Of a stretch of DNA of 64,000 nucleotides, positions 1,392-31,901 are shown piece after piece (position 1 is the first letter of the stretch; every line of letters starts with the position of its first letter). Source of the stretch: Oceanidesulfovibrio marinus. Lineage in GTDB: Bacteria; Desulfobacterota; Desulfovibrionia; Desulfovibrionales; Desulfovibrionaceae. The DNA is taken from positions 1 through 64,000 of the forward strand of contig NZ_CP039543.1 of assembly GCF_013085545.1 (NCBI RefSeq), read 5' to 3'. Under the pieces are notes generated by a model, which had not been told where the DNA came from, searched no databases, and was given only the letters and a program-made list of their open reading frames with translations. The translations under genes and the position numbers were made by a program.

Positions 1392-2147
1392 TCAGAGCAG
1401 GGCGAGCTCCATCTTGCCCCATGCCCCCATCTTCTGACCGCACTGGACGAACACCCCTTCCAGGCGCGGACCCTCCCCCCTGGCCAGCCCTTGGGCTGCC
1501 TCCAGAACCGATTCCACGTCGGCCTCCGCCTTGAGCTCGTTGCACAGGGCGGTGGCCGCCGCGTCGGCAAAGACGCCACTGGCCGAGCGGACCACCACGA
1601 GATCGCCCCGGCCGAGGCTCAGAGAGTGGCCGTACGTGGCCGAGGATGCGCACAGGGAGACGGGAAACTCGTTTGCCGGGATACGCACCCCGAGAGACGC
1701 TTCACGCCCTGGATCGGCCAGCAGGGCGATGGTGCGGTCCTTCGTGGAAATCATGTAGGTGTCGCCACCGTTCTCCACCAGGACCTCGGCGGAGAGGGGG
1801 GCCAGGGCGCGGGCCACGTGCTCTGCCACGCCGCCGGCCACGGCGGCCATGGGTCCCACGCCGCAGGCGCGGGCCGCGTCGGCCATGGCGCGGATTACGG
1901 GATGGCTTGCTTCGGGCACACCCACCGGGGTGAGGCTGGCGGCGAACTCCGGATGGCAGAGAATGAACGCCTTGAGCCGGCTGCGCAACTCGTGCACGGC
2001 GGCGGAAGCCTCGGCAGCCAGGTTGCGCGCGGCCACGATATGGAGGTCGGTTTCCTCGATGACTATCTGGAAGGCGCACTCGCCGCTGCGCGGGCAGGTG
2101 CTGGTGCGGTAGGAGCGCGCCGGGGCGATGGAGTGGGGAAATGGCAC
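1392..2147 (-). CDS. UPF0280 family protein
   Basis: About 251 residues starting at a GTG (2145-2147) with GGAA about 9 nt upstream. The reading frame stays open further upstream, but that part is out-of-frame reading of the next gene, so I place the start where UPF0280-like sequence begins (RSYRTSTC then VIEETDLHIVAARN). Family features are the opening beta strand with EETDL, a central Gly/Ala-rich stretch (GPMAAVAGGVAEHVA) and VENGGDTYM. The family is related to ApbE-type flavin transferases; its reaction is not established. The gene converges on dnaA and lies downstream of the 2201-2788 gene, probably in one transcript with it. Confidence 0.8.
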   Translation of the reverse strand: MPFPHSIAPARSYRTSTCPRSGECAFQIVIEETDLHIVAARNLAAEASAAVHELRSRLKAFILCHPEFAASLTPVGVPEASHPVIRAMADAARACGVGPMAAVAGGVAEHVARALAPLSAEVLVENGGDTYMISTKDRTIALLADPGREASLGVRIPANEFPVSLCASSATYGHSLSLGRGDLVVVRSASGVFADAAATALCNELKAEADVESVLEAAQGLARGEGPRLEGVFVQCGQKMGAWGKMELALL

Positions 2148-2200
2148 GGGATCGTGTTCCGGGCTGGAGGTCTTACGATGCGTGCTCTGGGTGATAGGCG

Positions 2201-2800: not shown

Positions 2801-4843
2801 TCAAGCGGATATGCCGGAGCCCATGGGAGCGCGCCGCTCTTCCCGGCCGGCGGCGGTGTCCAGCGCGTGGTACGCCTGGGCGATGTACTCTTCCGGCGAG
2901 GTGGAGGAGGTCGGCGTGAAGGCCGAAACACCGATGTGCACCTCCAGGGTGCGCGAGTCCTCCGGGCCGGCGACGGGTATGGCGAGATCGTGAACCGCCT
3001 GCCGCAGTGTCTCGCCCAGGGTTGCGGCTTCGTCCTGCAGCGTGTCGGGCAGGATTGCCACGTACTCGTGGTCGCCGTATCGGGCGAGGATGTTACACGG
3101 AAGCTGTTGCAGCTCCTGAGCCAGGGCGGAGGCCACGTGGTCGAGGGATTTCTTGGCGTGGAACTGCCCGTTGTGCGTCGAGTGCACGCCGATGCCGTCC
3201 ACCTCGATAACGATGACGCCCAGGGACTGCTTGGCCCGGTTGGAGGCGCGCACAGTGCGCGCGAACACGTCGTCGAAAAGCTGGCGGGAGAGAACCCCGC
3301 TGCGGGGCTCGAAGCAGTGGCGCAGCTCCTCGGCGGCCACAGTGGAGGCGCCGTCCTCCACGAACGAGCCTTCCAGCGGGGCCGGCGCAGTGTCCACCTT
3401 GGACATGCTCACGGTGAAGGTGGCGATGCTGCGTTTGCCCAGGGTCTGGTCGAAGTCCAGCACGCCGCCCATGTTCCGCACCAACCGCGAGCACAGGGGC
3501 ATGCCGTGCACGTCCGTGTCTTCTTCGAAGGGCAGGAAGAGCCTGTCCGGATCGCTCACCGGCGCGCACTGGAGGTAGGAAATCTTGACGAGCACGTTGC
3601 GCTCGCTGGAGGCGCTCTGGATGTTCACGTAGCCGCCGTCGGCCAGGTTTGCCAGGGCGTGGCGCACCAGGTCGATGACCACCTGGGTGAGGGCGTCGGG
3701 ATCAGCCATGGCCAGGGGGACCTCGTGGTCCAGGTCCACGCGCCACTCCACGGACCGGGCGTCCATCTCCGTGGCCAGCAGGGCGGCGGCGTTGGAGAGG
3801 AGGTTGTTCACGGAGCAGCCCTGCCGCGAGAGGTTGACCGGCTTGAGGTAGTCGCGGATGCGGTTGAGGAGCTCCTCCAGTCGGGCGGACTCTCGCAGGA
3901 TGATGTCCAGCTCCGGGGCCGGGGTCTTCTGGTTCAGGCGGCGCGCGAACCCGGCGATGGACATGAGCGGGTTGCGGATCTCATGGGCCACCTCGGCCGA
4001 GATGGAGCCCAGGGTCTTGAGCTTGGCGCTTTGCACCAGGGCCTGCTCCAGAAAGACGCGGTCGGTGATGTCCATGAACACGCCTTCCACACGGCGGCCC
4101 GCGCCGTTGGCGCGGTCATCCGGATCGCAGGGGAGTTCGGTGATGGAGCGGGCAATGCCGTGGACGATGTGGCCCTTGCGGTGGATGAGCCGGCACTCCA
4201 CGGAGAAGGGGCTGCCCTCGTCAAAGGCCTTGCGCAGGGTGCTGCGTATTGCGCGGCGGTCCTCCGGGTGGATGAGGTAGCCGAGCCAGTTGCGCCGGGC
4301 CATGGCCTCTTCCGGGGAGTAGCCCAGAAAGTGCGTGACCGACTGGTTGATGAACTCCAGGGTGAGGTCCGGCCGGATGGAGAAGACGATGAGCGGGATG
4401 CTCTGCAAGAGCAGGGAGTGGCGGTACTCGGCGCGGTGGATGCGGGCCTTGAGCCGGCGGCGCTGCCTGATCCGCTCCAGGAGCATGCCCAGGTCCTGCT
4501 CTTGCACGGGGGTGGGCAGGAAGTCGCAGGCGCCGATCTGCATGGCGCGGACCAAGGTATCGGACGACTCCGGATCGCCCATGAAGACCACGTCCTCAAC
4601 GCTCTGGCTGTCGAGCAGGGAGGTGGCGAGGTCGAGCCCACCGACCTCCTGCAGGTGGAGATTGATGAAGGCCAGGGAGTAGCGCTCGCCGTTCATGGAC
4701 TCGACCAGGTGATCTGGCTGGGCGCACGTCTGCGTGACAAAGCCGGTGCGCTCCAGCTGCATGGCGAGGCTGTCGCATGTGGCGCGGTCGTTGTCGACAA
4801 CGAGGGCGCGCGAGAGGTCGGGATCAAAAGGACACGGCTGCAT
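2801..4843 (-). CDS. REC-PAS-HisKA-HATPase-GGDEF protein with degenerate domains
   Basis: 680 residues from the ATG at 4841-4843; an in-frame ATG at 4922-4924 would add 27 low-quality residues. Domains in order: receiver (about 13-125), PAS (142-262), HisKA (271-335) with phosphoacceptor His287 in EVAHEIRNP, a HATPase-like fold (345-480) and a GGDEF-like domain (536-668). Key residues are missing in three domains. The receiver phosphoacceptor Asp is Asn61 (FINLHL) and its Lys is Thr111. The N-box Asn of the ATPase is His395 and the DxGxG box is replaced by LQCAPV. The GGDEF motif reads GDHEY (590-594). The PAS and H-box look intact. I infer a signalling scaffold or a partner of an intact kinase rather than an autonomous kinase or cyclase. 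No cognate regulator is adjacent. Confidence 0.85.
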   Translation of the reverse strand: MQPCPFDPDLSRALVVDNDRATCDSLAMQLERTGFVTQTCAQPDHLVESMNGERYSLAFINLHLQEVGGLDLATSLLDSQSVEDVVFMGDPESSDTLVRAMQIGACDFLPTPVQEQDLGMLLERIRQRRRLKARIHRAEYRHSLLLQSIPLIVFSIRPDLTLEFINQSVTHFLGYSPEEAMARRNWLGYLIHPEDRRAIRSTLRKAFDEGSPFSVECRLIHRKGHIVHGIARSITELPCDPDDRANGAGRRVEGVFMDITDRVFLEQALVQSAKLKTLGSISAEVAHEIRNPLMSIAGFARRLNQKTPAPELDIILRESARLEELLNRIRDYLKPVNLSRQGCSVNNLLSNAAALLATEMDARSVEWRVDLDHEVPLAMADPDALTQVVIDLVRHALANLADGGYVNIQSASSERNVLVKISYLQCAPVSDPDRLFLPFEEDTDVHGMPLCSRLVRNMGGVLDFDQTLGKRSIATFTVSMSKVDTAPAPLEGSFVEDGASTVAAEELRHCFEPRSGVLSRQLFDDVFARTVRASNRAKQSLGVIVIEVDGIGVHSTHNGQFHAKKSLDHVASALAQELQQLPCNILARYGDHEYVAILPDTLQDEAATLGETLRQAVHDLAIPVAGPEDSRTLEVHIGVSAFTPTSSTSPEEYIAQAYHALDTAAGREERRAPMGSGISA

Positions 4844-5071
4844 GAATGGGTTCCGGACTCGCGTTCCGTGTAGGATACGGCTTGATTTTTTGTACCTAAT
4901 CTTTTTGGAAATGGGATGCAACATCTATAATATTTTAAAATCGTTATGTTTTTCGGTGCATAGTTCTGAACGCAAGGAACGATGGGATATGCAATGGTCT
5001 TGGTGGAAGGTTTGATTTCTGGTACGGAGAAGAGCTAACTGTCGCCGCACACTGATAAAGGAGCAGCAGCC

Positions 5072-6373
5072 ATGCCATACAAAGGACTGGAAACCATCGC
5101 CCTGCACGCCGGCTATACGCCGGATTCGGAGACTCTTTCCCGGGCCGTGCCCATATACCAGACCACGAGCTTCATGTTCCGCAACACGGAGCACGCGGCC
5201 AAGCTCTTCGCCCTGGAGGAACCGGGTTTCATCTACACGCGGATCATGAACCCGACCACAGATGTGCTGGAGAAGCGACTGGCCGCGCTGCACGGAGCGC
5301 CGGCCGCCGTGGGCGCCGCATCGGGCATGTCGGCCATCTTCTACGCCGTGGCCACCATCACCCAGGCCGGGCAGAACATCGTCTCGGGCTCCAACCTGTA
5401 CGGCGGCACCAACACGCTGTTCAAGCACACGCTCTCTCGCTTCGGCATCGAGACTCGCATGGTGGACACGTCCGATCCGGCCAACGTGGCCGCGGCCATC
5501 GATGAGAACACCCGGCTGGTCTATACCGAGTCCATCGGCAACCCGCGCTGCAACGTGGACGACCTGGAGGCCATCGGCCGCATCGCGCACGAGCACAAGA
5601 TTCCCTTCATCGTGGACAATACGGTGGCGCCGCCGCCCATCTTCAACCCCATGGACGTGGGCGCGGACATCATCGTCTACTCGCTGACCAAGATCGTGGG
5701 CGGCCACGGCCTGGCCATCGGCGGCGCGGTGGTGGAGGCGGGCACGTTCGACTGGGCGGACTCGGGCAAGTTCCCGGAGATCACGGAGCCGGACCCCACC
5801 TACCACGGCATCGATTTCTGGGACGCGCTGTGCAAGCTGGAAGGCACGCCGTGCACGGCCTTTGCCTCCAAGCTGCGCACCAGTCTGCTGCGAGACATCG
5901 GGGCAGCGCCGGCGCCCATCAACAGCTTCCTCATCCTCCAGGGCCTGGAGACGCTGCCCCTGCGCGCCCGGGCGCACTGCGAGAACGCGCAGAAGGTGGC
6001 GGAGTTTCTGGAGAGCCACCCGGCCGTGCGCTGGGTGAACTACGCCGGGCTCGCGTCGCACCGCGACCATGGCCGGGCCGAGCGGTTTTTCCCTATGGGA
6101 CCGGGCGCGGTGTTCGGCTTCGGGCTGGAAGGCGGCCGGGACGCCGGGCGGAAGTTCATCGAGTCCGTGGAGCTTTGCTCCCACCTGGCCAATATCCTGG
6201 ACGCCAAGACCCTGGTGATCCACCCGGCCAGCACCACGCACTCGCAGCTTACGCCGGAGGAGCTGGAGCAGGCCGGGGTGCCGCAGGACATGGTGCGTAT
6301 CTCCGTGGGCATCGAGACCGCGGACGATATCATCGCCGACCTGGACCAGGCACTGAAGAAGTCTCAGGAATGA
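5072..6373 (+). CDS. metY: O-acetylhomoserine sulfhydrylase / Cys-Met metabolism PLP enzyme
   Basis: 433 residues, a typical length. PLP-dependent enzymes of this group condense O-acetylhomoserine with sulfide (or methanethiol) to give homocysteine (or methionine). Seen: the N-terminal TIALHAGYTPD and the YQTTSF substrate loop, ASGMSAIFYA around the cofactor phosphate site, VDNTVAPPP carrying the pyridine-binding Asp, and the Schiff-base Lys207 in YSLTKIVGGHG. A C-terminal HPASTTHSQL motif is typical of MetY. AAAGGAG lies 10 nt upstream of the ATG. A strong terminator follows, so the gene is monocistronic. Incorporating free sulfide fits a sulfide-producing organism. Methionine gamma-lyase is the main alternative. 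Confidence 0.9.
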   Translation: MPYKGLETIALHAGYTPDSETLSRAVPIYQTTSFMFRNTEHAAKLFALEEPGFIYTRIMNPTTDVLEKRLAALHGAPAAVGAASGMSAIFYAVATITQAGQNIVSGSNLYGGTNTLFKHTLSRFGIETRMVDTSDPANVAAAIDENTRLVYTESIGNPRCNVDDLEAIGRIAHEHKIPFIVDNTVAPPPIFNPMDVGADIIVYSLTKIVGGHGLAIGGAVVEAGTFDWADSGKFPEITEPDPTYHGIDFWDALCKLEGTPCTAFASKLRTSLLRDIGAAPAPINSFLILQGLETLPLRARAHCENAQKVAEFLESHPAVRWVNYAGLASHRDHGRAERFFPMGPGAVFGFGLEGGRDAGRKFIESVELCSHLANILDAKTLVIHPASTTHSQLTPEELEQAGVPQDMVRISVGIETADDIIADLDQALKKSQE

Positions 6374-6466: not shown

Positions 6467-6670
6467 TTACATCTTGACCACATTGGCCGCGCGCGCACCC
6501 TTGTCGCCGTGTTCGATATCAAAGGAAACGCGATCGCCCTCGTTCAGGGTTTTGAAGCCCTGAGACTGGATGGCGGAGTAGTGAACGAACACATCGTCAC
6601 CCTCTTCGCGTTGAATGAAACCGAACCCTTTTTTTTCGTTGAACCATTTCACAGTGCCTTCATACGCCAT
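6467..6670 (-). CDS. Cold-shock protein, CspA family
   Basis: 67 residues, standard for a single cold-shock domain. Both nucleic-acid-binding motifs are present: RNP1 KGFGFIQ and RNP2 [20 protein letters not shown] is the family opening. The start is the ATG at 6668-6670, with GGAGG about 7 nt upstream; the frame is open further upstream but without Csp sequence. It acts as an RNA chaperone. The gene lies about 80 bp downstream of a second csp gene on the same strand, with a perfect hairpin between them. Confidence 0.95.
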
Positions 6671-6700
6671 GGGAACCTCCACATTGCAGCAAGGAAACAA

Positions 6701-6724
6701 GTCGGCCCAACCAAAAGGGCCGAC
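6701..6724 (-). promoter_or_regulatory. Hairpin between the two csp genes
   Basis: Perfect 8-bp inverted repeat, GTCGGCCC and GGGCCGAC, around an 8-nt loop. Read on the minus strand the loop carries a TTTTGG run rather than a tail after the stem. It may be an attenuator, a processing site, or an mRNA structure in the leader of the 6467-6670 gene. Confidence 0.55.
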
Positions 6725-6753
6725 GGACAGATCATGTTCAAACGAATCGGCTT

Positions 6754-6957
6754 CTAGCAACAGCGCACGACGTTGGAAGCCCTGGGACCCTTGTCATTTT
6801 CTACGAGCTCAAAGGTGACAGCGTCGCCTTCCTGGAGGGTCTTGAAGCCGTCGGCCTGGATGGCCGAGTAGTGGACAAAGACATCCTCACCGTCATCGAT
6901 GCTGATGAAACCAAACCCTTTCTTCTCATTGAACCACTTGACCACGCCTTGGGCCAT
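6754..6957 (-). CDS. Cold-shock protein, CspA family
   Basis: 67 residues with [13 protein letters not shown]1 KGFGFIS and RNP2 DVFVHYSAI. The chain ends in an unusual Cys-Cys (VVRCC), which the neighbouring copy lacks. A strong ribosome site (AGGGAGGAG) precedes the ATG by about 8 nt. It is upstream in the csp pair. An AT-rich region of about 165 bp (6958-7122) precedes it and probably holds the promoter and a long 5' leader, as is usual for cold-shock genes. The two copies share most of the domain, pointing to a local duplication. Confidence 0.95.

Positions 6958-31825: not shown

Positions 31826-31901
<76 letters not shown>

Follow-up and report, generated by a model that had tools for sequence, protein, structure and literature searches.

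The stretch of DNA analysed here, which we call the window, comprises 64,000 nucleotides of the sulfate-reducing bacterium Oceanidesulfovibrio marinus (GCF_013085545.1, NZ_CP039543.1, positions 1-64,000; genome G000 in our set); its 5' end is dnaA and the source genome is a single contig of 4.76 Mb. In this work we have investigated a gene on the minus strand (2801..4843) whose translation and Pfam matches describe a protein of 680 amino acids with the order REC-PAS-DHp-pseudoCA-pseudoGGDEF. The gene runs from an ATG at 4843 to a stop at 2801. A longer reading frame starting at 4924 is unlikely, since the orthologue in a congener (G001), which is 70% identical to the window protein, begins with MQPCSFDPDL and so has a start matching the MQPCPFDPDL encoded from the ATG at 4843. 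The divergent neighbour is a metY-like gene of the O-acetylhomoserine sulfhydrylase type (5072..6373, plus strand). A Cys/Met-metabolism PLP gene of this type adjoins the family gene in five genomes (G000, G001, G014, G015 and G054) and is divergent in G000, G001 and G014. No kinase, response regulator or other two-component gene adjoins the window gene, and Rfam gave no riboswitch near it. Elsewhere in the window, an open reading frame beside dnaA (1392-2177, minus strand) matches PRK04334.1-3 of NCBIfam (hypothetical protein) above the cut-off and no Pfam family above the cut-off, two small cold-shock-like genes adjoin each other with an overlap of a few bases (6467-6957, minus strand), and a tRNA gene (31826-31898, plus strand) is the sole Rfam match.

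The domains of the protein, all encoded on the minus strand, carry an unusual set of substitutions. The N-terminal REC domain (residues 13-122, 4478..4807) is recognised by Pfam as Response_reg with 49.5 bits, above the cut-off, and has Asn61 (4661..4663) at the place of the phosphoacceptor Asp and Thr111 (4511..4513) at that of the conserved receiver Lys; one member of the acidic pair is also altered (DND, Asn18). It is followed by a PAS domain (residues 140-258, 4070..4426; PAS_3, 49.3 bits) and a DHp domain (residues 262-335, 3839..4060; HisKA, 41.7 bits), both above the cut-off, and the DHp domain contains the predicted phospho-histidine His287 (3983..3985) within the H-box EVAHEIRNP. The CA, or ATP-binding, domain (residues 338-483, 3395..3832) scores 21.6 bits for HATPase_c, below the cut-off of 26.4, and shows the Bergerat fold in the structural model. 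Both Asn places of its N-box are lost in the alignments, leaving Asp391 and, downstream of it, His395 (3659..3673), and the region in which the G1 box and the ATP lid are expected from the alignment and the secondary structure of the model (residues 425-447, 3503..3571) has no DxGxG and a short lid. Finally, the GGDEF domain (residues 513-668, 2840..3307; 60.5 bits, above the cut-off) has GDHEY at residues 590-594 (3062..3076) instead of the GG[DE]EF of the A-site and LPCN at residues 581-584 (3092..3103) instead of the RxxD of the I-site. A preliminary description of this locus, made from the letters of the DNA, had already named the substitutions at Asn61, Thr111 and His395, the missing DxGxG and the GDHEY loop, as well as the preserved PAS domain and H-box, and on all these points the alignments and profile scores agree with it.

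To place the protein in its family, relatives were searched in 99 related genomes and then in 297 genomes of the order. At E <= 1e-45 they occur in 66 of the 297, mostly as one copy per genome. In a profile search, matches above 260 bits were found in several further families of the phylum and the next ones drop to about 178 bits, and a wider scan (loci L037-L116) found relatives in Desulfacinum, Solidesulfovibrio, Desulforhabdus, Syntrophobacteraceae and Desulfobacteraceae. No relative was found on viral contigs. As the wider scan was seeded with the H-box pattern E[VIM]AHExRNP, its 70 rows were used for the CA domain and not for conservation of the His; for the latter we relied on 77 rows gathered by whole-protein or profile search, in which the H-box motif played no part. 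Most relatives have no GGDEF domain, which is present in 13 of the 77. In a tree with 30 functional-type kinases a fully supported branch sets the family apart from them, a picture that a closer outgroup could still alter, these kinases being from distant species.

The state of the CA domain is the same throughout this family. No relative has DxGxG at the G1 place, neither among the 77 nor among the 70 of the second, wider set, as compared with 30 of 32 functional-type kinase rows in the same scan. Matches to a DxGxG regular expression in four of the 70 and nine of the 77 rows were rejected; they lie outside the G1 place, some ahead of the strand that comes before it, others within the lid and G2 region. 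The N-box Asp and the Gly of the G2-box are 77-81 residues apart in the family and 83-100 in the 32 functional-type rows, and the missing part is the lid, whose residues are absent from all 70 rows of the wider set. In the window protein, likewise, the residues between the F-box and the G2-box are missing, where functional kinases have the lid with TTK. Some relatives retain the N-box Asn, and one of them (L046) reaches 46.1 bits for HATPase_c, above the cut-off. As this Asn persists in some members, the loss of G1 looks older than that of the N-box; the window protein has lost both. On this comparison, the loss in the CA domain appears to be ancestral to a Desulfobacterota family. Of the features that define an active HisKA kinase, the window protein thus has the phospho-His of the H-box and lacks both the N-box Asn and the G1 DxGxG, and from these residues we infer that its CA domain no longer binds ATP.

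The fold, on the other hand, has been retained. AlphaFold models gave a pLDDT of 84 for the full-length protein and 89 for DHp-CA with the 70 rows, and the histidine kinase core is kept; the CA domain is modelled with confidence (pLDDT mostly above 90) in a form like that of histidine kinases. The best structural matches, tied at Z of about 19, are DivL, ZraS and the CA domains of ThkA and other kinases, and RetS is also among the matches; the models were built without ligand, and a retained fold says nothing on function.

The other two degenerate domains have different histories. Most relatives have both key residues of the receiver, with Asp in 70 of the 77 and Lys in 69, including the congener. 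The tree needs three changes to account for the REC losses, one of them in the genus of the window, where the congener retains the Lys, and the loss in REC is recent and lineage-specific. With Asn61 in a REC fold, the window protein is a pseudo-receiver by the usual definition. The GGDEF domain is in no member of the family catalytic, as judged from its motifs: GG[DE]EF occurs in none of the 13 members that carry the domain, and the GDHEY of the window protein does not fit a diguanylate cyclase. RxxD is kept in eight of these 13, five residues ahead of the A-site, which is the exact place of the I-site. Eight loci (L012, L013, L014, L015, L018, L165, L167 and L178) combine a GGDEF domain with a dead A-site and RxxD at this place. 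Relatives with RxxD are probably c-di-GMP receptors fused to a pseudo-kinase; the window protein, with LPCN, lacks the intact RxxD that marks receptors of the PopA/SgmT type. The preliminary description spoke of three pseudo-domains, and every one of the residue losses is real, but they have separate histories, ancestral for CA and recent for REC, with a GGDEF domain that is non-catalytic in all members carrying it. Its term hybrid kinase-cyclase is misleading, as complete kinase or cyclase motifs occur in no examined member of the family. Receiver domains without the Asp are rare, amounting to only 2.0% (PMC12632262), and the CA loss recurs in all examined relatives, so that the motif losses of the window protein would seem to be more than chance.

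Could the gene simply be decaying? The preliminary description had reasoned that complete motifs in close orthologues would suggest recent decay. Such motifs were found for REC and for neither CA nor GGDEF. We rejected recent pseudogene decay: the gene has no frameshift or premature stop, the CA motifs are missing family-wide, and dN/dS between the window and congener genes is below 1 in every domain, which argues that the window gene is not a pseudogene. The values are 0.10 for DHp, 0.22 for both PAS and CA, 0.37 for GGDEF and 0.39 for REC, and the linker that joins CA to GGDEF has 0.80. The window protein is under purifying selection, and its DHp domain is the most constrained. In the 77 rows collected independently of the motif, whose tree spans 39 substitutions per site, His287, Arg290, Asn291 and Pro292 are invariant and Glu288 is found in 74. 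Glu288 and Asn291 are also the phosphatase residues of HisKA proteins, and for this reason their conservation fits phosphotransfer and phosphatase activity alike.

The neighbourhoods of some relatives, unlike that of the window gene, include other signalling genes. In 16 genomes, which form a separate and fully supported group, the family gene lies directly after a kinase-like gene, often with an overlap of 4 or 19 bases. The proteins of the partner family (encoded for example at L136:4673-6085, plus strand, and L134:7654-9054 and L149:2172-3614, both minus strand) have the H-box DIGHNVIVPN and an intact N-box and G2-box, with Ser or Thr at the G1 Asp in all rows examined, and Pfam recognises the HATPase domain and no HisKA in the scanned members. 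Homologues of the partner occur in 56 of the 99 related genomes; there is no match in the genome of the window. In another genome (G057), a run of three genes whose ends abut or overlap (L129:6036-11031, minus strand) encodes a REC-HD-GYP protein, a complete PAS-HisKA-HATPase kinase and a REC-PAS-DHp-pseudoCA protein, and it is a good candidate for a relay. Genes of other kinds are also found beside family members. At L058:6371-14959 the family gene has a glycogen-synthase-like gene on one side and, on the other, a PPDK-type dikinase gene with a GAPDH gene after it; dikinase-like proteins are also encoded near family members in L039, L046, L050 and L054, and in Desulfomicrobium (L061:4668-6113) a gene for UTP-glucose-1-phosphate uridylyltransferase comes after the pseudo-kinase.

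Why would a protein keep its phosphorylatable His and lose the site that supplies the phosphate? Because this combination is held throughout the family, the best reading is that phosphate comes from outside or is removed from a partner, and the family probably passes on or removes phosphates from other kinases. Specifically, we propose, with a probability of about one half, that the window protein is a pseudo-histidine kinase whose His287 exchanges phosphate with receivers charged by other kinases, in the manner of Spo0B, ChpT and PhyT. It would be a cytoplasmic, PAS-controlled and presumably dimeric DHp protein which retains the CA fold and does not bind ATP, and His287 would take phosphate from, and give it to, receiver domains charged by true kinases. 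In most relatives their own intact N-terminal REC could be the regulatory or phosphate input, and an internal step from REC to His is conceivable. Since the REC of the window protein is a pseudo-receiver, the input in its genus would have to come from elsewhere: either a receiver belonging to another protein would serve the DHp, or PAS would gate it. The C-terminal GGDEF would act as a non-catalytic regulatory module, which in the window protein is also without a c-di-GMP site. For the window protein itself, phosphotransfer, its partners and its signal are all what we infer. External phosphorylation or a scaffold role had been suggested in the preliminary description; the pairing of a phosphorylatable His with a lost ATP site is indeed a family-wide feature, but the losses behind it did not occur as one event.

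The residues that support phosphotransfer would also suit a dedicated phosphatase, in which the DHp uses E288xxN291 to remove phosphate from at least one response regulator, the PAS, REC and GGDEF domains set the activity and His287 merely assists. The near-invariance of Glu288 and Asn291 is what such an enzyme would show, and PhyP, a DHp protein whose ATPase domain is degenerate, was initially put forward as a phosphatase of PhyR before it was described as the bifunctional PhyT (PMC5898713). However, HisKA proteins can act as phosphatases without the His (PMC12632262), and its presence in every one of the 77 relatives is not required by this explanation alone, which we regard as possible though unlikely. 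Is the protein then a scaffold or inhibitor of the DivL or RetS kind, one that involves no phosphate chemistry and acts on an active kinase or a regulator by heterodimerisation or binding? The window protein has kept the fold while losing the ATP motifs, the Asp of REC and the A-site, and both DivL and RetS are among its structural matches. DivL, however, has replaced its His, whereas here the H-box is frozen and the DHp is the slowest-evolving domain, and a pure scaffold role seems to us rather improbable.

Two further explanations retain an ATP-dependent step. In a heterodimer, the CA domain of a partner kinase might phosphorylate the DHp in trans, after which the DHp would serve as an ordinary phosphodonor. 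The clade in which the gene directly follows the kinase-like gene, with its recognised HATPase and no recognised HisKA, is the kind of arrangement that would be expected, but the partner itself is without the G1 Asp and has no copy in the genome of the window, which makes this quite improbable. That the protein is a true kinase of weak activity, whose CA domain binds nucleotide in an unusual way, is still harder to believe: the Bergerat fold is retained and some relatives keep the N-box Asn, with the HATPase_c score of L046 as the clearest case, yet no member has the G1 box, the lid is short and the N-box Asn of the window protein is gone as well.

How does the phosphotransfer that we favour compare with known systems? 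Spo0B, ChpT and PhyT are dimeric phosphotransferases with a DHp like that of histidine kinases, a degenerate CA domain and a conserved phospho-His, and the window protein likewise joins a DHp-His to a degenerate CA. ChpT has the shape of a histidine kinase, does not autophosphorylate and gave crystals without bound ATP (PMC3433190), and the ATPase domain of PhyT is degenerated in a protein described as a bifunctional phosphotransferase (PMC5898713). The present family differs in its HisKA-type H-box (HEIRNP) and in its fused REC and PAS and, in some members, GGDEF domains, and phosphotransfer is here a prediction. No close sequence kinship to Spo0B, ChpT or PhyT was found, and none of them is among the structural matches listed, the best of which are ordinary histidine kinases and DivL; their absence from that list excludes nothing. 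The Rec-controlled kinase LvrB (PMC13269768) has its REC N-terminal to DHp-CA, an order shared by the window protein and other members; LvrB, however, autophosphorylates and its REC is phosphorylatable, whereas the family is without CA motifs and the REC of the window protein is dead. This REC resembles known pseudo-receivers (PMC12632262) in having the fold without Asp and Lys, but its loss is lineage-specific within a family of mostly intact REC domains. SgmT of Myxococcus xanthus (PMC3509222) is also a histidine-kinase protein with a C-terminal GGDEF and a degenerate A-site; it is an active kinase which keeps its I-site and binds c-di-GMP, whereas the I-site is lost in the window protein and present in only part of its GGDEF-bearing relatives. 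DivL and RetS likewise use the fold of a histidine kinase for regulation rather than for a kinase role, though DivL is without the phospho-His that is invariant here. As the defining feature of each is absent, we do not class the window protein as an active kinase, a cyclase, an LvrB-type protein or a c-di-GMP receptor. In a limited literature search we did not meet the combination of REC, PAS, HisKA-type DHp and dead CA with an optional receptor-type GGDEF, and the terms looked up in a D. vulgaris study on regulator mapping (PMC3333781) led to nothing of relevance.

It is tempting to extend the proposal to the whole family, although this is a tentative idea that we think more likely wrong than right. 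Across Desulfobacterota these proteins, with REC, PAS and an ATP-dead DHp-CA in one chain, may be hubs of phosphorelays that run from a kinase to REC, then to the DHp-His and on to the next regulator. In one sub-group a receptor-type GGDEF would let c-di-GMP gate the relay, and the genus of the window would have given up both REC and the c-di-GMP site, so that only the His relay is left. Automatic annotation would label the family members as kinases and, in the case of the window protein, as a cyclase too; going by their motifs, neither name is likely to be right for the members examined. A pseudo-kinase family that is conserved and widespread and has a frozen phospho-His offers a clean case for the role of ATP-dead histidine kinases, and its natural variants, in which REC may be intact or dead, RxxD kept or lost and the gene paired with a kinase gene or alone, could show which part is the input.
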